From: Phycisphaerae bacterium
GTDB lineage: Bacteria > Planctomycetota > Phycisphaerae > JAJVII01
Direction of reading: 5' to 3'
Length of the DNA: 64,000 bases
NCBI GenBank assembly: GCA_022072085.1
Contig: JAJVII010000017.1
Span: 1 to 64,000 of the forward strand
Below, in pieces: positions 29,173-61,576 of this stretch (the stretch's first letter is position 1; every line of letters begins with the position of its first letter). The notes beneath the pieces were generated by a model, which did no database searches, was not told the DNA's origin, and saw nothing but the letters and a program-made list of their open reading frames with translations. A program made the position numbers and the translations under genes.

Positions 29173-29357
29173 TGCCAATGCCGAATGCCGAATGTCGAAT
29201 GACGAATGGCGAATCAATTGCGAATGCCCAATTCCGAATGACGAAAGAATGACGAATCACCAATGACGAACGGAGCCGCCCCGCTGCCTCCTTGACATTC
29301 GGCATTTGTGCTTCGACGTTCGTTCTGTATTCGGCATTCGCCATTCGACATTTGTCC
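29173..29357. repeat. CGAATGT-word hairpin, 'empty' copy 1
   Basis: The left arm (29173-29272) is a run of GAATG-based words such as CCGAATGTCGAATGACGAAT; the right arm (29291-29357) has the complementary words (ATTCGGCATTCGCCATTCG). Only about 18 bases lie between them. The array begins directly after the CBS stop codon. The rest of the 309-base gap, up to the macroglobulin gene, shows no gene or clear promoter. Confidence 0.85.
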
Positions 29358-44928: not shown

Positions 44929-46293
44929 ATGCGGACGCGACGACGACTTGGCGATGCGGCCCTGGTCCTGACGGCGGCTGCGCTGCTGGCGCTGGGCGGG
45001 TGCGGGTATTCCGAAGTGCCGGTGGATGTCGGGCCAGCCGACGTGACCGTCGTGCCGGCGGCTGCCGATGCGCATCGACCGGCGCGGGTGTGGCTGGTCA
45101 ACGCCCAGCGGACGCTCGGGCCGCTGCTGCCCGAGCCGGCCGACGCGGTCCTGCTCACCGACGCGATGCACGACGCGAGCGGGCACGCCATCGACGTCTA
45201 CAAGCATTTCGGCCGCGACCCAAAGAAGCTGCGGACAATCTTCGGCAACCGCAGCGGCATCCGCGCGACGGCGCAGGGGGCGTCGGGCGGCGGTTACAAC
45301 GTGAATCGCCCGCCGCCGTGGCCGGGCTTCCAGGAGGTGCTGCTGCCGATCGGCGAGAACCTTCAGTTGGCCGGTCGGCTGGGCATGGCGACGCGCGACG
45401 GCCAGGTGATCGACGCGCCCTGCATCGTGCTCCTGCCCGGGTTGCTGGGCGACAACGCGGTGCGGCGCAGCCGCGACCTGGCGACGGGCCTGCGGGCCTG
45501 CGGGCTGCACGTGCTTTCGCTGGAGCAGCGCGGGCTGGGGCTGACCGGACTGCTGGACCCGGCGCACGCCTACAGTTGGGGCGTGCCCTCCACCGGCGAC
45601 CTGATGTACGTCTCGGACTGGCTGACGGCCCGCGAGCACGTGACTGCAACCGGGCTGATCGGCTTCTGCTGGAGCGCGAACACCGCGCTGCTGGCGGCGT
45701 GGTACGACGGGACCGACGACAACGACCCGATGATCCCCGAGCGCATCCGGCGGCTGACGCTGCCCAGGCGGGGGGGGCGGCATTACACCGCGGGGGTGAT
45801 CGCCTTCTCGCCGGTGATCGGCTTCGAGCGGGTGATCGAGGAGTTGCAGACGCCGCAAAGCATGCTGGCCGACCCGATCCTCGCGTCGATGCAGAAGACG
45901 ATCCGCGGGCGGATGGAGTTCATGCGCTACCAGCCGGTCAGCGGCAGCCTGCGCGACTGCATCCGCTTCGACTGCGGGCGGGCGGGCTACGGCGATCCTC
46001 AGACCATCGCCGACGGGCTGACGTTCCTGCGGCTGCTCTCGTGGCCGGGCCACCCGGCCGGCAACAAGCTGGCCAAGGTCCGCGTGCCGGCACTGATCGT
46101 CCACGCCGCCAACGATCCGCTGGGCACGGCCCAGGCGGTGGCTGACCTGGTCAGCGAAACCGACAACCCCAACGTCGCGGCCGTGATGCTGGCCGGCGGC
46201 GGGCACGTGGGGTTCGCGCCCTACGCGCGGGGGTATTACATGAGCCTGATCGTGAACTTCTTCAGCCCGGCGACAGCCCCGCGGGGGCAATGA
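44929..46293 (+). CDS. Alpha/beta-hydrolase lipoprotein
   Basis: A 454-residue exported protein with a lipobox (LLALGGC, Cys25). The hydrolase core runs from APCIVLLPGLLGDNAVRRS (oxyanion region) through GLIGFCWSANTALLAAWYD. This segment occupies the nucleophile elbow, but it reads Gly-Phe-Cys-Trp-Ser rather than Gly-x-Ser-x-Gly, so the nucleophile could be Cys or may be lost. A candidate acid lies in VPALIVHAANDPLG and a His in GGGHVGF. The overall shape resembles YheT-type esterases. The stop codon is inside the left arm of the CGAATGT hairpin. GGAGGTG precedes the ATG. Confidence 0.78.
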   Translation: MRTRRRLGDAALVLTAAALLALGGCGYSEVPVDVGPADVTVVPAAADAHRPARVWLVNAQRTLGPLLPEPADAVLLTDAMHDASGHAIDVYKHFGRDPKKLRTIFGNRSGIRATAQGASGGGYNVNRPPPWPGFQEVLLPIGENLQLAGRLGMATRDGQVIDAPCIVLLPGLLGDNAVRRSRDLATGLRACGLHVLSLEQRGLGLTGLLDPAHAYSWGVPSTGDLMYVSDWLTAREHVTATGLIGFCWSANTALLAAWYDGTDDNDPMIPERIRRLTLPRRGGRHYTAGVIAFSPVIGFERVIEELQTPQSMLADPILASMQKTIRGRMEFMRYQPVSGSLRDCIRFDCGRAGYGDPQTIADGLTFLRLLSWPGHPAGNKLAKVRVPALIVHAANDPLGTAQAVADLVSETDNPNVAAVMLAGGGHVGFAPYARGYYMSLIVNFFSPATAPRGQ

Positions 46294-46411
46294 CGAATGT
46301 CGAATGTCGAATGTCGAATGCCCGGACGGGCCGGCCCCGATGAACGGGGACGCCATTCGTCATTGGGCATTCGTCATTCATTCGACATTCGCCATTCGGC
46401 ATTCGACATTG
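46288..46411. repeat. CGAATGT-word hairpin, 'empty' copy 2
   Basis: The left arm (46288-46320) reads CAATGACGAATGTCGAATGT and two further words. The right arm (46352-46411) has the complementary GCCATTCGTCATTGGGCATT, TTCGACATTCGCCATTCGG and so on. The loop is 31 bases. It joins two convergent genes: the left arm contains the stop codon of the hydrolase gene, and the right arm ends four bases before the stop of the lyase gene. Confidence 0.88.
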
Positions 46412-53264: not shown

Positions 53265-53291
53265 GGGGTCTCCGCGATTCGGCGGGGCAGG

Positions 53292-53376
53292 AGTCGGGCA
53301 TCGGGGGTCAGGGGTCGGGAAGAGATGAAACGGCAAACGCCATCTGCCGACCTCCGATCCCCGATCCCCGACCCCA
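53292..53376. repeat. GATCCCC-word hairpin
   Basis: The left arm (53292-53319) reads AGTCGGGCATCGGGGGTCAG then GGGTCGGG; the right arm (53351-53376) is CCGATCCCCGATCCCCGACC then CC. Each arm is a tandem of one word and they pair with each other across about 31 bases. It lies between the PAP2 start and the stop of the leftward TPR-protease gene. Confidence 0.75.
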
Positions 53377-53412: not shown

Positions 53413-56382
53413 TCAGCCCTTGGGGGCCTCGGTGAGCTGCTTGAGCAGGTCGCGGGCCGGCCCGTTGCCGGGGTTCAGCTCGGTGGCGAACTTGGCGGCC
53501 ATCTTGGCCAGGTCGCTCTTGCCCTGGCCGTGATACATATAGGCCAGCCGGGCCCAGAACTCGTCGTTTCGCGGGTCGAGCTGGATGGCGACCTTCATCT
53601 CGCTGATGGCCCGGTCGGCCTGCTTGCTGTCGAAGCAGGCGACGGCGAGCTGTTCGTGGGTGGCGGCGTTGAACGGGTCGATGTACATCGCCTCGGTCAG
53701 CCAGACGGCGGCCTGGTCGGGCTGCTTGAGGTCGGTGTAGAGCGTCGCCAGCCGGACGGCGTATCGCGGGTCGGACTGCTCGCGGCGGGCCAACTCGGCC
53801 AACTCGGGCAGGGCGGCCTTCTTGTTGTCGACGCGCTCGTCGAGGTAGATGGCGGCCAATCCGGCGTAGCTGCTGGGGTCCAGCGGGCAGGTGAGCTTGA
53901 GCCGGTTGAACCACAACGCCGCGTTGCCGAACTCGTCGTCGCTCAGATAGTGCCGGGCCAGCAGCCGCGGGGCCTCGGCGTTGGTCGGATCGACCGACGC
54001 GAGCTTGAGCAGCAGATCCTGGGCCTCGTCCCACTTGGACTTGTCGCGGATCAGCACCTGGGCCAGCAGCGAGAGGGCCTTGGCGTTGTTGGGGTCGAGC
54101 TTCAGGGCCTCGGACGCCTCGGACTGGATCTTCTTGAGCTTGTCGGGCGAGCGGGCGTAGACATAGGCCTCGGCCAGCCGGGCGTGGGCGTTGGCGTCGT
54201 TGGGGTTGTCCTTGACGGCTTTGGCGGCGTCGGCCAGCGAGGGGATCGGGTCGGCGTTCAGCCGCCAGACGGTCTTGACCTGGGCCCGGGCCCACTCGAT
54301 GAACTTCGCGTCGAACTCGTCCTCGGTGACGCCGAGGATTTCCTTGAGCGCCTCGGCCTGCGTCTTGCCGTCGTCGAACGCCTTGAGCAGCTTGCCGATG
54401 CTCGGGTAGCCGTACTGGTCGATGATGAACTCGCCCATCCACTCGCTCTGGGCGTAGGCGAGCTGGCGGTCCGTGGGGCGCTTGGGACGGATGAAGCCCC
54501 AGTTGATCTGGCTGACCTTGAAGAGCTGGTCCTGGCGCAGCGCCGCGACGAGCATCTGCACCCAGTCCCACTTGCGCGGCTGGGGCTCCTGCATCACCGC
54601 CAGCGACTCGGTGAACCAGTGCGGGATTCGGTTGTGCGTCGCCGCCAACGTGACCACGTGCGTGAACTCGTGGCGGAGGACGGCGGCCCAGTTGAAGCCC
54701 TGGGGCGTGCCGGCCATCTTGCGCGGGCTATACATCGCCACCACCCAACCCGTGCAGGCGCCGACGGTGGGGATCCACGACGTGCCGGTCACGCGCACCG
54801 AGAACTGGGCGTGCGTGGGGAACAGCTCGATGACGGCCTTGCGGTCGAGCTTGACGCCGTAGTCGCGGCAGAGCTCGGCGTAGACGCTCTCGAGATAGTC
54901 GCGGAAGTACGGGCCCAGCACCGCGTCGGTCTTGTCGGAGAACTTGATGATGAAGTTCTTGCTCTCCAATGTCTGGAACCGCTCCAACTGCTCCAGCAGC
55001 GTCAGCGTGTTGAACGACTTCTTGTTGAACGCGTCGATGCTGAACGCGTCGTCCAGCAGCTTGCTGGCCAGTTCCTCGTGGCCGGTCTGCATGTACATCA
55101 TGCCCAGCCCGCTGCGGGCGTTGGGGTCCCACGGGGCCAGCTCGATCACCTTCTTGTAGAGTTTCTCGGCCAGGTCATACTGCCGGGCCCCCGACTCGGC
55201 GTCGGCGAAGGTCAGGTAGAACTCGGCGGGCCTGGGGTTGATCGCCTCGGCCTGCTTCGTGACCTCGGCCACCTGGTCGTCGTGCCGCAGCAGCGACTCG
55301 GCCGACGCGAGCTGCGCCAGCAGGCCCAGGTGTCGCGGGTTGATCTTGAGCCCCTTGCGGGCGGCCGCGGCGGCGTCGTCGAACCGCCGCTGGAGCAGCA
55401 GCAGCGCCGATTCCAGCTCGAAGACAGCCGGGTCGTTGGCGTTCACCTTGCGGGCCGCGGCGAGCTGGGCCTCGACCTGCTCGAACTTCCAGCCTTCCAG
55501 CATTGCCCAGCCGGCGCCCAGGTTGGCCTGGTAGGCCGACGGGTTGATTCGCAGCGCGGCCCCGAAGTCCTCAATCGCCTGCTTGTCCTTGTAGGCGACC
55601 AGCGAGAGATTCGCGGCGGCGACCCGGGCGGGCCAATACTCGCGGTCCAGCTCCTCGTAGGCCACCTGGTAGAGCTGCTGGAGGATCATCGTGTCATAGG
55701 TCACCGGGCCGGGGTTGTTGCGGGCGTCCACGCCCTTGGCGGCGGGGCGGGCAATCAGCCGGCTGTAGCGGTCGAGGATCTGCCCGGCCCACGTCCGGCC
55801 GCCTGCCGTCGCGGGCCAGTCCTTGGCCACCTTGCCGTCCACCCACTTGTAAACGTCGCGGGCCTGGTCGTACTGGCCGATCGTTTCGAGCTGTCGGCCG
55901 ACCAGCCAGCGGGCGTGCAGGTTCTTCTCGTCCTCCTTGAGAACCGCATCGGCCAGGTCGCGGGCCTGCTCATACTGGCCCAGCATGGCGAGCAACTCGG
56001 CCTTCTCCAGCCGCCAGTCGGCCGACTTGGCGCCGTCGTCGGCGGCCGATTCGAGCATCTTGCCGGCCTCGTCGTACTTGCCCGTCTGGCGATAGAGCTG
56101 GGCCAGTCCGACGATAGCCGACAGCTTCGTCTGGTCGTTCTTGAGCAACTCTCGGAAGTCGGCCTCGGCCTTGTCGTGGAAGCCGACCTTCAGCCGCACC
56201 GCCGCCCGCTCAGCCAGCGGCAGTTCGACGGTGGTGTCCGGCCGAGTCGTCGGACCCGCGTGGGCCGGCTGGGTGGTCGGAGCGACGACCGGCCTGGGAC
56301 GGGCCGGCGCCGGATCGTCCGCCATCGCGACCAGGGGAGACAGCCCGAGCAATGCCAGCAGAACGGCGAGTCTGCGCAACAT
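53413..56382 (-). CDS. Secreted TPR protein with embedded gluzincin-like metalloprotease domain
   Basis: A 989-residue exported protein with a signal peptide (MLRRLAVLLALLGLSPLVAMA). TPR helices cover about residues 60-480 and again from about 680 to the end. Between them is a Peptidase MA-like domain: the zinc motif HEFTH at 571-575, then 16 residues and a Glu in WFTESLAV (Glu592), the usual third ligand of gluzincins. The protein is therefore probably an active zinc protease flanked by protein-binding repeats. Substrate unknown. The ATG at 56382 was chosen because the signal peptide starts there and AAAGGA precedes it. Confidence 0.9.
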   Translation of the reverse strand: MLRRLAVLLALLGLSPLVAMADDPAPARPRPVVAPTTQPAHAGPTTRPDTTVELPLAERAAVRLKVGFHDKAEADFRELLKNDQTKLSAIVGLAQLYRQTGKYDEAGKMLESAADDGAKSADWRLEKAELLAMLGQYEQARDLADAVLKEDEKNLHARWLVGRQLETIGQYDQARDVYKWVDGKVAKDWPATAGGRTWAGQILDRYSRLIARPAAKGVDARNNPGPVTYDTMILQQLYQVAYEELDREYWPARVAAANLSLVAYKDKQAIEDFGAALRINPSAYQANLGAGWAMLEGWKFEQVEAQLAAARKVNANDPAVFELESALLLLQRRFDDAAAAARKGLKINPRHLGLLAQLASAESLLRHDDQVAEVTKQAEAINPRPAEFYLTFADAESGARQYDLAEKLYKKVIELAPWDPNARSGLGMMYMQTGHEELASKLLDDAFSIDAFNKKSFNTLTLLEQLERFQTLESKNFIIKFSDKTDAVLGPYFRDYLESVYAELCRDYGVKLDRKAVIELFPTHAQFSVRVTGTSWIPTVGACTGWVVAMYSPRKMAGTPQGFNWAAVLRHEFTHVVTLAATHNRIPHWFTESLAVMQEPQPRKWDWVQMLVAALRQDQLFKVSQINWGFIRPKRPTDRQLAYAQSEWMGEFIIDQYGYPSIGKLLKAFDDGKTQAEALKEILGVTEDEFDAKFIEWARAQVKTVWRLNADPIPSLADAAKAVKDNPNDANAHARLAEAYVYARSPDKLKKIQSEASEALKLDPNNAKALSLLAQVLIRDKSKWDEAQDLLLKLASVDPTNAEAPRLLARHYLSDDEFGNAALWFNRLKLTCPLDPSSYAGLAAIYLDERVDNKKAALPELAELARREQSDPRYAVRLATLYTDLKQPDQAAVWLTEAMYIDPFNAATHEQLAVACFDSKQADRAISEMKVAIQLDPRNDEFWARLAYMYHGQGKSDLAKMAAKFATELNPGNGPARDLLKQLTEAPKG

Positions 56383-56666
56383 GAGAGCATCCTTTGTCAA
56401 TAGTTCAGCGCAGCCGGCGCCGCGGGCGCCGGCGAGGAACCCTATAGTTGGCCAAACGCACGGCTGGCACAAGGCTTGCGGCCATTCCCGCACGGCCGGC
56501 CGACTACCAGTATACGTCCCGCAAGGCCGTTCGGCAGCCCCCTGCGGGCGCGGGCGAGCGGGGGATTCTCTGTTAATCCGGTCCCGAATAGTGGCCGATA
56601 AGAAGGGGTGTGGCGCGGGCCGCCTCCGTGCGTGAACCCTCCGGCCCGCCCGTTCGCAGGATGGCC

Positions 56667-57953
56667 ATGACCCAACGCGACCTGAGCAGGCTGTGGGCTG
56701 CCGGGCGAAACCGTCGCGACCTCTATCGCGACGGCATGGGCGCGTTCAACCGCGGCGACTACCCCGCCGCCATCGCCTGTTTCGTCCGCGTCGCCGACGA
56801 CGACACGCTGCACGGGCGGCTGGCCCGGTTCTACCTGGCCCAGTCGCACCGGCACCTCGGGCTAGCCGCCATCGGGCGCGGGGAGCATCGCACCGCCGTC
56901 GGGCACTTCCAGGTGGCCTGCCGCTTCAACCCGTCCGGCGGGGAGTTGGCCAGGTTCCTCGCCGTCGCCTGCGCCGGCGCCGGCGACGTCGCCCGGGCCG
57001 CCTCGCCGCTGGAGCGGGCCCTGTCGGCTGACCACGGCGACCGCCGGGCGCGGATCATGCTGGCGATCGCCCAATGGCGCAGCGGGCAGTCGGCTGCCGC
57101 CGAACTGACGCTGCACGAGGGGCTGTCCGACACCAATCCGACGCCGGAAATCCACCTGTTCCTTGGACTGCTGGCCGCCCAGTGCGAACAGTGGGACCGC
57201 GTCGAGGAGCACCTGACCCGCTGCGTCGCCTGGGACGAGAGCAACGTGACCGCGCGGCGGTATCTCGGGCTGGCCTGCGGGGCCCAGGGCCGGCCGGCTG
57301 ACGCCCTGAACCATCTGAAGCTGGCCCAGCGGCTGGACCCGTCCGACCCGCACGTGGCGCTGGAACTGGCCTACGCGGCCATGGCGGTCGGCGCACCGGC
57401 TGAGTCGGTCCGTCCGCTTCGCGTGCTGCCCGCCGCCGATCCGTCCCGGGGGCAGGTAGACGACCTGGACCGCCTGGGCCGGGCCATCACCGACGAGCCC
57501 GAGTTCGTCCAGGCGTTCCTGGATCTGGAGCCTTCGCCGATGGACCCGCAGATATTCGGCGTGCTGGCGGCTGCGGTGAAGCTGGCCATCGCGTCCAGGC
57601 CCGCCTACGCCGACCTGCACTACTACGCCTCGCGGGTCAACCAGCGGATCGGACGCGTTCACGACGCCATCGACGCCGCCGAGCGGGCCATCGCGATCAA
57701 CCCGCGATACGTGGCCGCCCTGATCCATGTGGCCAAGCTCTATCGTGGGACGGCCCAGCAGGACTCGGCAGCCGATCGGCTGCGGTCGGCCATTGCCGCC
57801 GGCGGGGACTACCCCGACGTGCACCTGCTGCTGGGCGATCTCTACCGCGACATGGGCCAGGTGGCCCGTGCCCGCCAGAGCTACGAGCGGGCCCTGAAGC
57901 TGAACGAGAACTTCGATGCCGCCCGCAAAGCGCTCGATGCGCTGGCAGCGTGA
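56667..57953 (+). CDS. TPR protein 1
   Basis: A 428-residue protein composed of about ten helical repeats of TPR type (for example DYPAAIACFVRVADDD, RPADALNHLKLAQRLDPSDP, RVHDAIDAAERAIAINPRY, QVARARQSYERALKLNENFD). There is no signal peptide, so it should act in the cytoplasm. ATGs at 56661 and 56667 are both possible; AGGATGGCC before the second favours it. Downstream, after the four-helix-bundle element, comes another TPR protein in the same direction and with a similar type of repeat. The two were probably adjacent before that element arrived. Partner proteins are unknown. Confidence 0.87.
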   Translation: MTQRDLSRLWAAGRNRRDLYRDGMGAFNRGDYPAAIACFVRVADDDTLHGRLARFYLAQSHRHLGLAAIGRGEHRTAVGHFQVACRFNPSGGELARFLAVACAGAGDVARAASPLERALSADHGDRRARIMLAIAQWRSGQSAAAELTLHEGLSDTNPTPEIHLFLGLLAAQCEQWDRVEEHLTRCVAWDESNVTARRYLGLACGAQGRPADALNHLKLAQRLDPSDPHVALELAYAAMAVGAPAESVRPLRVLPAADPSRGQVDDLDRLGRAITDEPEFVQAFLDLEPSPMDPQIFGVLAAAVKLAIASRPAYADLHYYASRVNQRIGRVHDAIDAAERAIAINPRYVAALIHVAKLYRGTAQQDSAADRLRSAIAAGGDYPDVHLLLGDLYRDMGQVARARQSYERALKLNENFDAARKALDALAA

Positions 57954-57960
57954 CGGCGAT

Positions 57961-58438
57961 ATCGAATGTCGAATGTCGAATGTCGAATGACAGGGACCGG
58001 TGCGATCTTGGGGGAGGAAGGGCGAAGTGTCAAAGAGCGAATTCGCACTGGAGTTCCAACGGCGGACCATGCGGTTTGCGGTCGATGTCATTCGCTTCAG
58101 CGCCAAGCTGCCCGATCGAGCGGAGTTCTGGGACATTCGGCGGCAGTTGGTGCGGTCCGCGTCGTCGGTTGCAGCAAACTACCGAGCTGCCTGCCGGGCG
58201 CAGTCCCGGGCGGCGTTCGTGGCGAAACTTTCGATCGTTGAAGAGGAAGGCGACGAATCCGCCTTCTGGCTGGAAGTCCTGGATCAGATGAAGACGCGCG
58301 AAAATGACGAGTTGAAGCGTCTGCACGTGGAGGTCGAAGAAATAGTCCGAATCGTCGTCAAGTCGAAGAAGACCGCCAAGAGCAATAGCGGCAAGCCCTC
58401 TTCGAATTCGACATTCGACACTCGACATTCGACATTCA
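57961..58438. mobile_element. CGAATGT-armed element carrying a four-helix-bundle gene
   Basis: The left arm (57961-57990) is ATCGAATGTCGAATGTCGAA and one more word. The right arm (58404-58438) is GAATTCGACATTCGACACTC and complementary words. Between them lies one complete gene. The same arms occur with loops of only about 18 and 31 bases at 29173-29357 and 46288-46411. The element fills exactly the space between the stop codon of TPR gene 1 and the start codon of TPR gene 2. No target-site duplication is evident. Calling it mobile is inference from the repeated structure. Confidence 0.5.
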
Positions 58439-58443
58439 AATGA
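58027..58443 (+). CDS. Four-helix-bundle protein (23S rRNA IVS / S23-like)
   Basis: A 138-residue protein of the four-helix-bundle family found in intervening sequences of 23S rRNA and, as Avd, in diversity-generating retroelements. The typical segments are present: TMRFAVDVIRFSAKLP, the RRQLVRSASSVAANYRAACRA helix, AAFVAKLSIVEEEGDESAFWLEVL, and a basic C-terminal helix. The start is GTG at 58027 with AGGAAGGG upstream. The last 12-15 residues (SNSTFDTRHSTFK) are translated from the right repeat arm, and its stop overlaps the next start codon (ATGA). No rRNA or retroelement is present here. The positively charged surface implies nucleic-acid binding, which is known for Avd. Confidence 0.88.
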   Translation: MSKSEFALEFQRRTMRFAVDVIRFSAKLPDRAEFWDIRRQLVRSASSVAANYRAACRAQSRAAFVAKLSIVEEEGDESAFWLEVLDQMKTRENDELKRLHVEVEEIVRIVVKSKKTAKSNSGKPSSNSTFDTRHSTFK

Positions 58444-60155
58444 GCTACTTGCTTGAGATATTGGGCCGCGGGCGGACGACGAACATGCGTCAGTTGTTCG
58501 CGGCGCAGTTCGTGCCGGTGGACGACGCGACGCTGTCGTCGCTGGCGTCGCAGGCCCGCGGCGAGCCGCAGAACGCCGACCTTCAGGCCCGCGTCGGGCT
58601 GGCGATGCTTCAGCGTTATCGGCTGGCTGAGGCCGCGACGCGCTTCCACGCCGCCCTGCGGGCCGATCCGCAGTCGATGCTCTCGCGGCTGGGGTTGGCC
58701 TGCTGCCACGAGCACCAGGGCGAAATCGACCAGGCCGCCGAGCAGCTTTCTCTGGCCACCCTGCACACGCCCGACGATCCGATGGTCCTGCTGGCCCTGG
58801 GCTACTGCCACGAGCGGGCCGGGCGTTCCGACAAGGCCGCCGAGTGCTACCTCGACGCCCTGACCCGCGACCCGCGCACCGTCGCCGCCCACGAGCGGCT
58901 GGCCGCCATTGAGCTGGCCGCCGGGCGATACGACCACGCGATCGATCACTACGAATGGCTGCGCGAGCAGACCTGCGGCGGCGACGCCCACGTGCGGCTC
59001 TGCCTGGCCAACCTCTACCTCAAAGCCGGACGATATCCCGACGCGGTCCGCGAGTTTGGGTCGGCCATCGCGCTGGCGCCCGAGAACTGGGCCGCCCGCC
59101 AGCAGTTGGCCACTACGCTGGCCGACGGCGGGCAGATCCGCGAGGCCGTCGAGGAACTGCTCGAGCTGATCGACCAGCAGGGCGACCTGCCGGACCTGCA
59201 CGTGCAGTTGGCCGACCTCTACGCCCGGCTCGGCGAGGACAGCCAGGCCGTCGAGCACCTCACGCGGGCGCTGGACGCCGACCGCGACTACCTCGAAGCG
59301 GCCGTCAAGCTGGCGACCCAGCACCTGCGGGCCGGCCGGTTCGCCGAGGCGGCGGTCGGCTTCAACCGCGCCGTCGAGATCAGCGACCGCACGCTGACGG
59401 CCTACGTCGGCCTGGCGGTCGCCCAGAAGAACGCCGGCCAGTGGTCCGAGGCGATGGACACGCTGGACCTGGCCGGGCAACTCGCCCCCAACTCCACGCT
59501 GCTGTTCCGCGAGATGAGCCGGCTGGAACTCAAGGCCGGTCTGGCCCGTCAGGGCGAGTCGGTCTTCACCGCCGACTTCGCCGCGGAGAAGGCCCAGACC
59601 GATCTCGACGGCGAGGACGACTGGGAGAAGCTGCTGGAGTTCCAGATCGAACGCCACAAGCAGGCGGTGAAGGACCGGCCCAGCCACGCGGACCTGCACT
59701 ACCGCCTCGGCCTGCTGATGTCCGGCCAGGACGACCCGCACGCGGCGATCGCTCAGTATCGCCAGGCCGTCCGCATCAACCCGGCCTACACCAAGGCCCG
59801 CATCAAGCTGGGGCTGGCGCTGCGCGAGGTCGGCCAGATCGACGAAGCCGTCGAGCACCTGTCGGCTGCCCTGGACCTCGAGCCGGGCTTCGCCGACGTT
59901 CACTATCGGCTGGGGCTGATCTTCGTGCAGACCGACCAGCTCGCCCGGGCCGCGGAGGCGTTCGAGAAGTCGCTGGCCGTCAACGAGTCCAACCCCGAGG
60001 TGCGGGCCAACCTGGCCACCTGCCTGGAGTCGATGGGCCTGGTGGACCGCGCTTCGGAGCAGTGGGAACGCCTGGCCGCCTCGGTGCCGGCCGATTCGCA
60101 GTTCGCCGGACGGGCCGCCGACCGCCTGGCCCGCCTGCGCCGCTCCGCGGGTTGA
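58440..60155 (+). CDS. TPR protein 2
   Basis: A 571-residue protein with about 14 TPR units (for example YRLAEAATRFHAALRADPQS, RSDKAAECYLDALTRDPRT, QIDEAVEHLSAALDLEPGF, QLARAAEAFEKSLAVNESNP) and no signal peptide. The start ATG overlaps the stop of the four-helix-bundle gene by four bases, so translation is now coupled to that gene. Its original ribosome-binding site, if any, would have been replaced by the repeat arm. An ATG at 58485 (MRQLFAAQF) is a possible older start. The role is unknown; TPR proteins scaffold complexes. Confidence 0.87.
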   Translation: MSYLLEILGRGRTTNMRQLFAAQFVPVDDATLSSLASQARGEPQNADLQARVGLAMLQRYRLAEAATRFHAALRADPQSMLSRLGLACCHEHQGEIDQAAEQLSLATLHTPDDPMVLLALGYCHERAGRSDKAAECYLDALTRDPRTVAAHERLAAIELAAGRYDHAIDHYEWLREQTCGGDAHVRLCLANLYLKAGRYPDAVREFGSAIALAPENWAARQQLATTLADGGQIREAVEELLELIDQQGDLPDLHVQLADLYARLGEDSQAVEHLTRALDADRDYLEAAVKLATQHLRAGRFAEAAVGFNRAVEISDRTLTAYVGLAVAQKNAGQWSEAMDTLDLAGQLAPNSTLLFREMSRLELKAGLARQGESVFTADFAAEKAQTDLDGEDDWEKLLEFQIERHKQAVKDRPSHADLHYRLGLLMSGQDDPHAAIAQYRQAVRINPAYTKARIKLGLALREVGQIDEAVEHLSAALDLEPGFADVHYRLGLIFVQTDQLARAAEAFEKSLAVNESNPEVRANLATCLESMGLVDRASEQWERLAASVPADSQFAGRAADRLARLRRSAG

Positions 60156-60340
60156 CCGGCTGCCCGCGCACTGCCCGCCTCCGCTCTTCCCAATCGCCCT
60201 GTCCGTGTTCATAATGACGCTGTCGCCGGTTCGTGACCTTCTGTTCGTGCATTTCATGAGGGCGGGTTGCACGGGGATCGGCCCGTGACGGGGCGACAAA
60301 GGCCACGGATCATCTGGCACGACTCCTGGGGAGGACGTTC

Positions 60341-61576
60341 ATGGCCATTCAGTTCGGTTGCACGGGGTGCGGGCGGGTGCTGTCGGCGCAGGAGCAACAT
60401 GCCGGACAGCGGATCGCCTGCCCGCACTGCGGGACGGAGCAACTCGTGCCCCCGCCGGTGCGGCTGCACGGGCCGTCTGCCGCCCCGCCGGCGATGCCGA
60501 CGCAGATCGGCGCGATGCCCGTTCCGCCGCAGACCGCGTTCAGCCAGCCGACCGCCCAAGTCAAGGGGGGCAGGGGCCTGGCCGTCGCGGCCCTGGTGCT
60601 GGCGGTCATCCCGTTCACCTCGCCGATCGGCTTCATGCTCGGCATCGTCGCGTTGATCTCCGCGTCACGCAAGCCGGATCGGCCGGGCAACGGGATGGCC
60701 CTGGCCAGCGTGCTGGTCGGCTGCGGCTGGCTGACGGTCGGGCTTATGGTGCTGATGGTGGCGAGAGGGGTGCGTACGACCCATGATATAGTTTGGCGGG
60801 TCAAGTGCGCCGCCAATCTGAACAATCTGGGCAAGACCATGAGGACCTACTCCTCCAGCAACATGGGCTATCCGTCTGTGCCGGCCGGTCGGCGGATCGA
60901 CATGAGCCCCACCGGCGTCGAAGACAGCCTCGACACCGACGCGAGCCTCTGGCTGCTGGTGCGAAGCGACGCGATCGGTGCCGGTTGTTTTGTCTGCCTG
61001 TCCGACGATGGCGCCGAGGCCTTCAGCGGGCAGGCAGGCAGCGTGCCGCCCGACGACGCCTTCCCGCGCGTGGATGACTCGGGCCATTCCGGCGGCAGAC
61101 ACCGAAGCCTCAGCTACAGCTACCAGGTTCCGCAGGGCCCCAAGGGGGTGCCGCGCGATGGGATGGAATCCGCGACGAGTTTCGCGATCCTGGCAGACCG
61201 GGCTCCGCCGATGAACCGCCTCGAACTGCTGCCCGAAGCGCAAGCGGGATCGGCCGGATCGGCTGCGGACTATGTGAAGTCGCTGAGCAAGAAGCAGAAG
61301 GCCGGCTACAACAGCCCCAACCACGGCGGCGAGGGCCAGAACGTGTTGTTCCTGGACGGCCACGTGGAATGGTCCGCCGATCCATTCTGCGGTGTCCACG
61401 GCGACAACATCTACACCCGCGGCGGCGGGCGGGACTGGTCCACCGACCCGCAGGAGCGTCTGCGCGGGCGGCTGCCGGCGAACCTGAACGCGATTACCAC
61501 CGCCGACGGCCCGGTTGCCGACGGGGATTCGTTCCTCGCCAACATCCTCTACGGCAAGGCGGTGACAGGGCCTTGA
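60341..61576 (+). CDS. Zinc-ribbon, DUF4190-like and DUF1559-like membrane protein
   Basis: A 411-residue protein with three parts. An N-terminal zinc ribbon (FGCTGCGRVLSAQEQHAGQR, then ACPHCG) comes first, followed by a Pro-rich linker. Next are two hydrophobic helices like DUF4190 (VAALVLAVIPFTSPIGFMLG and LASVLVGCGWLTVGLMVL). The C-terminal domain has CAANLNNLGKTMRTYSSSN and a H-x10-DG ending (NHGGEGQNVLFLDGHVEW), which recalls the pseudopilin-like DUF1559 proteins abundant in planctomycetes. The usual prepilin leader is absent, since membrane insertion is by the DUF4190-like helices. The combination is plausible for this phylum; function unknown. The start ATG follows GGGAGG. Confidence 0.82.
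   Translation: MAIQFGCTGCGRVLSAQEQHAGQRIACPHCGTEQLVPPPVRLHGPSAAPPAMPTQIGAMPVPPQTAFSQPTAQVKGGRGLAVAALVLAVIPFTSPIGFMLGIVALISASRKPDRPGNGMALASVLVGCGWLTVGLMVLMVARGVRTTHDIVWRVKCAANLNNLGKTMRTYSSSNMGYPSVPAGRRIDMSPTGVEDSLDTDASLWLLVRSDAIGAGCFVCLSDDGAEAFSGQAGSVPPDDAFPRVDDSGHSGGRHRSLSYSYQVPQGPKGVPRDGMESATSFAILADRAPPMNRLELLPEAQAGSAGSAADYVKSLSKKQKAGYNSPNHGGEGQNVLFLDGHVEWSADPFCGVHGDNIYTRGGGRDWSTDPQERLRGRLPANLNAITTADGPVADGDSFLANILYGKAVTGP

Follow-up and report, generated by a model that had tools for sequence, protein, structure and literature searches.

Why does a small gene of the four-helix-bundle type lie between two TPR genes of a Phycisphaerae bacterium, enclosed by two complementary arrays of one repeated heptamer, and by what means could it have come there? 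The gene belongs to the S23p family, which to our knowledge is without known function; intervening sequences (IVSs) have been regarded since about 1990 as an oddity of a few 23S genes, and we know of no accepted mechanism for their mobility. The locus is part of a stretch of 64,000 nucleotides, called the window here, and the features of the window that matter for the argument are the following.

56610..57953, + strand: upstream TPR gene (TPR1) of the host operon, outside the unit
57959..57989, + strand: left arm, four tandem TCGAATG heptamers (inverted repeat; period-7 array at 57962-57989)
58011..58022, + strand: probable Shine-Dalgarno sequence GGGGGAGGAAGG, judged from sequence
58027..58443, + strand: four-helix-bundle gene (S23p/23S IVP, PF05635, TIGR02436), GTG start, 138 aa
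58406..58437, - strand: right arm, the TCGAATG array inverted, its end 2 nt short of the TPR2 ATG
58440..60155, + strand: downstream TPR gene (TPR2) of the host operon, outside the unit
29176..29355 (about 29173-29357 in the earlier note), no strand assigned: gene-less hairpin of the CGAATG word family (inverted repeat)
46288..46411, no strand assigned: gene-less hairpin of the CGAATG word family (inverted repeat)

A gene and two arms between TPR1 and TPR2

The left arm starts shortly 3' of the TPR1 stop codon (57951-57953) and is matched by the right arm over 30 nt (57959-57988 against 58406-58435) with 93% complementarity, and GGAGGAAGG precedes the likely GTG start at 58027 as the Shine-Dalgarno sequence. 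The enclosed gene matches PF05635 (E 1.6e-15) and TIGR02436 (E 8.8e-23). The inverted repeat and these matches confirm the description, given in an earlier note on this DNA, of a gene set between complementary CGAATGT-word arms, and its statement that neither rRNA nor a reverse transcriptase is present at the locus is equally correct, as the neighbours are TPR genes and no conserved 23S motif was found. The same note had the right arm encode both the last residues and the stop codon of the gene: the former holds, with the C-terminal residues STFDTRHSTFK encoded by the arm, and the latter does not, since the TGA (58441-58443) lies just beyond the arm, where it overlaps the TPR2 ATG at 58440-58442 (ATGA). 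With its arms the whole unit measures about 480-485 nt. Fold prediction pairs the two arms, with a z of only -1.87 for the fold as a whole, and no Rfam match was obtained at 56000-60500.

Gene and both arms came as one unit into the space that separates the TPR1 stop codon from the TPR2 start codon. In three relatives (G001, G003 and G021) TPR1 and TPR2 are adjacent without arms or gene, separated by a spacer of 13 to about 30 nt, and in G001, which is of the same family as the host, the TPR1 stop is followed by a 13-nt spacer and then by the TPR2 ATG. Since these orthologous pairs lack both the arms and the gene, the window unit is an insertion. The existence of such unit-free TPR pairs, together with the strong enrichment of PF05635 genes for word-repeat arms described below, upholds the one-unit model advanced earlier.

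The two empty CGAATGT-word hairpins reported at about 29173-29357 and at 46288-46411 were confirmed, and they have many counterparts. In 864 kb of the host genome 38 non-redundant period-7 arrays were counted, as compared to 0 in a codon-block shuffle, and hence they are not due to chance; three successive CGAATGN words give 42 overlapping genome matches and the reversed pattern gives none. In 24 of 30 non-cassette arrays the word differs by at most one mismatch from that of some cassette in this genome, a likeness attained by 14% of random genomic 7-mers, and these 30 gene-less arrays are not all independent, since adjacent arrays can be both arms of one hairpin. This shared use of words, along with one case of gene loss (L226) and one of hairpin insertion (L218) described below, supports the proposal that the hairpins are a non-autonomous family, one member of which bears a gene. 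As a separate observation, a fourth hairpin of the window (53289-53375) is gene-less and built from the word CCGACCC, which matches the arms of another PF05635 cassette (L003) of the same genome.

Arms and words at PF05635 genes

The host genome contains seven further PF05635 genes (eight in total), all outside the window and most of them with arms built from other words. The words at its PF05635 loci are AGTGGCT, AGAGGCT, CGGGGGT, AGTGCTG, CGAATGT and AGATTTC, and two closely similar loci contain 8-nt-like repeats. For the wider comparison, which covered mostly draft metagenome assemblies, arms were detected by a single local-alignment score within 350 nt and the contrasts were assessed with Fisher tests, with neighbouring ORFs as controls in the class and cross-phylum sets and the viral set scored alone. 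Among relatives of the same class, inverted tandem-word arms flank 46 of the 67 scorable PF05635 genes and 3 of 403 neighbouring ORFs (score at least 34). An independent cross-phylum set of named organisms has arms at 45/80 PF05635 loci versus 15/448 control ORFs, a contrast that is understated because two of the 15 armed controls are PF05635 genes themselves, and viral contigs have them at 24/28 loci with a looser cut-off (score at least 30). Enrichment at the four-helix genes of relatives, which the earlier note had put forward as a check, is thus found in both controlled sets, and the word-armed PF05635 architecture spans bacterial phyla, where it lies between operon genes. A literature search on PF05635 plus repeats, mostly outside subscription journals, returned no description of such armed cassettes at sites other than rRNA. 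HNH-like and GSHPx genes among the armed controls were considered as further cargo and rejected, being single cases each.

In about a third of PF05635 genes the arm score falls below the threshold. One subfamily, of the QLNRAALSIAANIAEGNGRF type, is mostly without detectable arms (L005, L006, L093, L098, L103, L110, L112, L114 and L120) and is perhaps a settled host gene. In another subfamily (L116-L119 and L121) the C-terminus LKSEISNLKS resembles translated heptamer repeats.

The word differs at nearly every PF05635 locus. Among 107 armed loci the repeat period is 7 in 82, 8 in 20 and 9 in 2, and when the word phases of the 82 heptamer loci are aligned, with the left arm read along the gene strand, a common directional grammar, T-Y-A-G-K-N-R, is obtained, whose columns are G (0.85), K, N, not-C, T (0.53), Y (0.76) and A (0.71). 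Its log-likelihood of -623.5, against a null of -665.6 with a standard deviation of 3.5, lies 12 standard deviations above that of column-permuted words. At held-out viral loci the sense direction fits better than the antisense direction for 20/20 period-7 arms, which are not fully independent cases since some of these loci have words in common. Likewise, G exceeds C in the left arm at 89 loci and falls below it at 13. The AG cores are phased within each arm, most often five of them (32/82 left arms and 28/82 right arms), but this mode is broad, with 2 to 39 units per arm, and an arm length of about 32 nt also equals three helical turns, which counts against a reading by five cores. The window word TCGAATG breaks the grammar in the column that is otherwise best conserved, with A instead of G, and the words in the clade of the window protein are generally less G-rich.

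Close PF05635 proteins have words in common (Mantel r 0.11, 0/999). A constraint of RNA pairing through G-U wobble was considered and rejected, since changes compatible with G-U are not in excess among the mismatches between the arms (132 vs 123, p=0.62). RNA pairing alone therefore explains the likeness of the two arms less well than does their being reading sites, or the copying of one arm onto the other. At the nuoC|nuoD junction of four Rhizobiales, PF05635 cassettes with four different words are present (L206, L135, L200 and L180), which may reflect word turnover at one ancestral site or independent insertions.

A second cargo is found in comparable arms. GxxExxY (PF13366) genes of relatives have inverted arms in 22/29 loci (score at least 30; L274-L303), with longer units of 8 to 10 nt, for example CACAGAGG, and 1/11 neighbours in a small control set is armed. 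A GxxExxY cassette occupies the groEL|dnaJ junction in two genomes of one Phycisphaerae genus (G013 and G031) and is absent from a third (G004). Counts of PF05635 and PF13366 show a modest correlation across 41 genomes (rho 0.36, p 0.02), and the GxxExxY units possibly represent a parallel element family.

Mobility of the unit and its explanation

Filled and empty sites in other hosts show clean insertion, gene loss that leaves a solo hairpin, and insertion of a hairpin into a cassette. On Nostoc plasmids, one site holds the cassette in L216-L218 and is empty in L215 and L219-L222, and a second site is filled in L210 and L225, retains arms without the gene in L226 and is empty in L227 and L228. 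In L218 (about 1080-1290) the cassette gene is broken by a gene-less hairpin of ~200 bp with the same word and with clean junctions, without target duplication; a TTCTA target duplication is possible at the first Nostoc site, and no consistent target-site duplication was seen across the insertions. Trichormus, Scytonema and Aulosira contain elements like that of the first site, with the same word and a similar protein, but at positions unrelated to it. In the Phycisphaerae genus mentioned above, a groES|groEL cassette is present in G031 and absent from G013 and G004, and dnaE2 of G013 holds a 453-nt PF05635 cassette (L080/L316, G013:C1 about 102000) that dnaE2 of G004 is without; the dnaE2 frame stays open through the whole cassette, with the four-helix gene in a different frame (groES, groEL, dnaJ, dnaE2, nuoC, nuoD and sdhB were named from translated sequence and not from annotation). 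Cassettes point in the same direction as both neighbours at 58 loci and opposite to both at 5, the mixed orientation classes being less certain because ORFs were called mechanically. The unit is therefore mobile in the evolutionary sense, and its boundaries and word rule are established.

AlphaFold2 predicts four helices for the window protein (mean pLDDT 90), which Foldseek matches to 2rld and 2gsc and then to Avd 4dwl and the DGR RNP 8ub7 (TM to target 0.82 and 0.76, respectively). Proteins of the family form pentamers in crystals: 2gsc and 2rld, the two close relatives of solved structure, contain five chains each, and Xcc0516 has been described as a pentameric toroid (PMC4990558). The explanation that we favour, and consider fairly probable, is that the unit is an IVS-type small mobile cassette in the TPR operon, whose arms are read by its own ring protein, with an enzyme acting in trans. 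The arms would be phased arrays of binding sites, with about five YAG-like cores at 7-nt spacing, and the ring-forming four-helix protein, which we infer to read these cores as a pentamer, might grip both arms in the manner in which TRAP reads phased triplets. It would then serve as an end-binding or RNP helper, by analogy with Avd for reverse transcriptase, and cutting and joining would be carried out in trans by an enzyme encoded outside the cassette. A protein that reads the repeated word would drift together with it, from which lineage-specific words would result, and gene-less hairpins could be mobilised in trans. RNase III may trim the stem from the host transcript as in 23S IVSs, by which the flanking operon genes would stay expressed.

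The nature of the enzyme is the point on which the alternatives differ. The cassette encodes none, and the RVT_1 or Y1 transposase content of genomes does not explain cassette counts. A MITE-style DNA transposon, with the arms as ordinary terminal inverted repeats that hold several transposase sites, a transposase encoded elsewhere as the mover of cassettes and solo hairpins alike, and the four-helix gene as passenger or regulator, would accommodate the same word facing inward at both ends, the mobility of solo hairpins, the missing G-U signal in the arms and a second, unrelated cargo with comparable arms in GxxExxY. It is nevertheless unlikely, since the ends vary at almost every locus, unlike transposase-defined ends, and in close relatives the word is correlated with the cargo protein; nor does it fit the strong co-directional bias (58:5) or the lack of a consistent target duplication. 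Y1_Tnp counts correlate weakly with cassette counts (rho 0.31, p 0.046), PF01797 (Y1) is absent from 5 cassette-bearing genomes, and two such genomes are without both Y1 and RVT_1.

About as improbable is retro-insertion, in which the Avd-like protein would pass a hairpin transcript to a reverse transcriptase encoded elsewhere, whose cDNA product would enter operon junctions. An RVT_1 match is absent in 17/34 cassette-bearing genomes, near-complete ones included, RVT_1 and cassette counts are uncorrelated (rho 0.16, p 0.32), and the G-U signature of RNA pairing is missing. Past mobility could explain the absent reverse transcriptases, and the fold common to Avd and the DGR RNP, the co-directional insertion and the clean junctions of the nested L218 insertion speak in its favour. 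The idea that cassettes depend on a reverse transcriptase or Y1 transposase of the resident genome was accordingly rejected, the correlations being weak or absent.

The proposal that the window gene is a settled operon gene, with arms that act as regulatory repeats in translational autoregulation by the four-helix protein and with mobility incidental or past, draws on the position of the left arm in the gene leader, on the right arm adjoining the next start codon and on the overlap of the gene stop with the next ATG. It has little to recommend it, as cassettes are present in some and absent from other members of a genus, or plasmids of a single strain, and as solo hairpins are mobile. Pre-existing heptamer hairpins that receive a four-helix gene, in the way that rRNA hairpin loops harbour 23S IVSs, would account for the common gene-less hairpins with the same word, but this is very improbable and was rejected, as it is contradicted at every site with an empty homologue (the TPR pair, the first Nostoc site, groES|groEL and groEL|dnaJ), the empty forms of which are all arm-free, so that arms and gene arrive together.

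In its wider form, the trans-mobilised cassette read by its own ring protein leads to a more tentative proposal, to which we give slightly less than an even chance: word-armed cassettes would be a phylum-spanning and so far unrecognised class of minimal mobile elements, each a single small gene enclosed by inverted arrays of a 7- or 8-nt word peculiar to its lineage, with a pentamer that reads about five phased YAG-like cores and co-evolves with the word. The many unexplained heptamer families of bacteria (GGGAATC, TAACTGA and the heptanucleotides of cyanobacteria) would be descendants that have lost the gene, classical 23S IVSs would be the form resident in rRNA, and GxxExxY genes would be a parallel branch. 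Should PF05635 genes prove to be markers of a mobile element that is widespread, many annotations as 'four helix bundle protein' gain a context, the word-arm code becomes a testable ligand for the four-helix protein, and a probable origin can be given for the heptamer repeats of Xanthomonas, Nostoc and Beggiatoaceae. Locus-specific words bound by one grammar are a natural data set on protein/nucleic-acid recognition drifting together.

Comparison with known systems

The cassettes resemble MITEs in being mobile with inverted terminal repeats and differ from them in that the terminal sequence is not constant in the family, the word changing at nearly every locus. With REP/RAYT and IS200/IS605 they have in common the hairpin elements, solo copies and clean insertions, but they are without a Y1 transposase or a fixed tetranucleotide, and their arm words vary with the locus. 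Avd of DGRs has the same four-helix fold as the window protein; however, no reverse transcriptase lies beside the window cassette, the only RVT_1 match of the host genome being on contig C54, and no match to Avd was found at the sequence level. TRAP forms an 11-mer ring that reads phased (G/U)AG triplets. The likeness to it is a functional analogy only, of a ring protein with phased AG-containing repeats, in which binding by the cassette protein is hypothetical, and TRAP differs by an unrelated fold, its 11-mer ring and a spacing shorter than that of the cassette arms.

Heptamer repeats without explanation have been described: Xanthomonas has GGGAATC and Nostoc GGGGA(C/T)T (PMC4692102), and Beggiatoaceae have TAACTGA (PMC4679880). 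All resemble the arms in their 7-nt tandem units. The Xanthomonas repeats share with them a mode of four units and many inverted pairs (PMC4692102), and the Beggiatoaceae repeats lie mostly directly before start codons, like the right arm in the window (PMC4679880). TCAGTTA, the reverse complement of the Beggiatoaceae word, agrees with the grammar better than about 99% of random heptamers do. The repeats of all three groups, those of Xanthomonas and Beggiatoaceae being compared here from their published description, are not tied to PF05635 genes in the passages of PMC4692102 and PMC4679880 that were searched, and their link to such genes is a prediction.

The nearest counterpart is the 23S IVS of Coxiella burnetii, for which tandem GACAGAT heptamers in strain-variable number before the S23p ORF, and a 28-bp stem with cleavage and excision by RNase III, were described in 2016 (PMC4990558). 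Like the window unit it encodes a PF05635 protein, has tandem heptamers next to the ORF and terminal inverted repeats of about 28-30 nt, and is of similar size (428 nt versus about 480 nt); it differs by its place in 23S rRNA helices, whereas window-type elements lie between operon genes and their word varies with the locus. An rRNA location of the cassettes was rejected, as no conserved 23S motif was present in any cassette locus read. Given the heptamers, stem and RNase III cleavage of the Coxiella IVS, classical 23S IVSs, known here from published description, are likely a special, rRNA-resident form of these elements. Beyond what the earlier note had described, the comparison thus adds a locus-specific word, a cross-phylum architecture and a second cargo family, to which the 23S IVSs can probably be joined as elements of the same kind.
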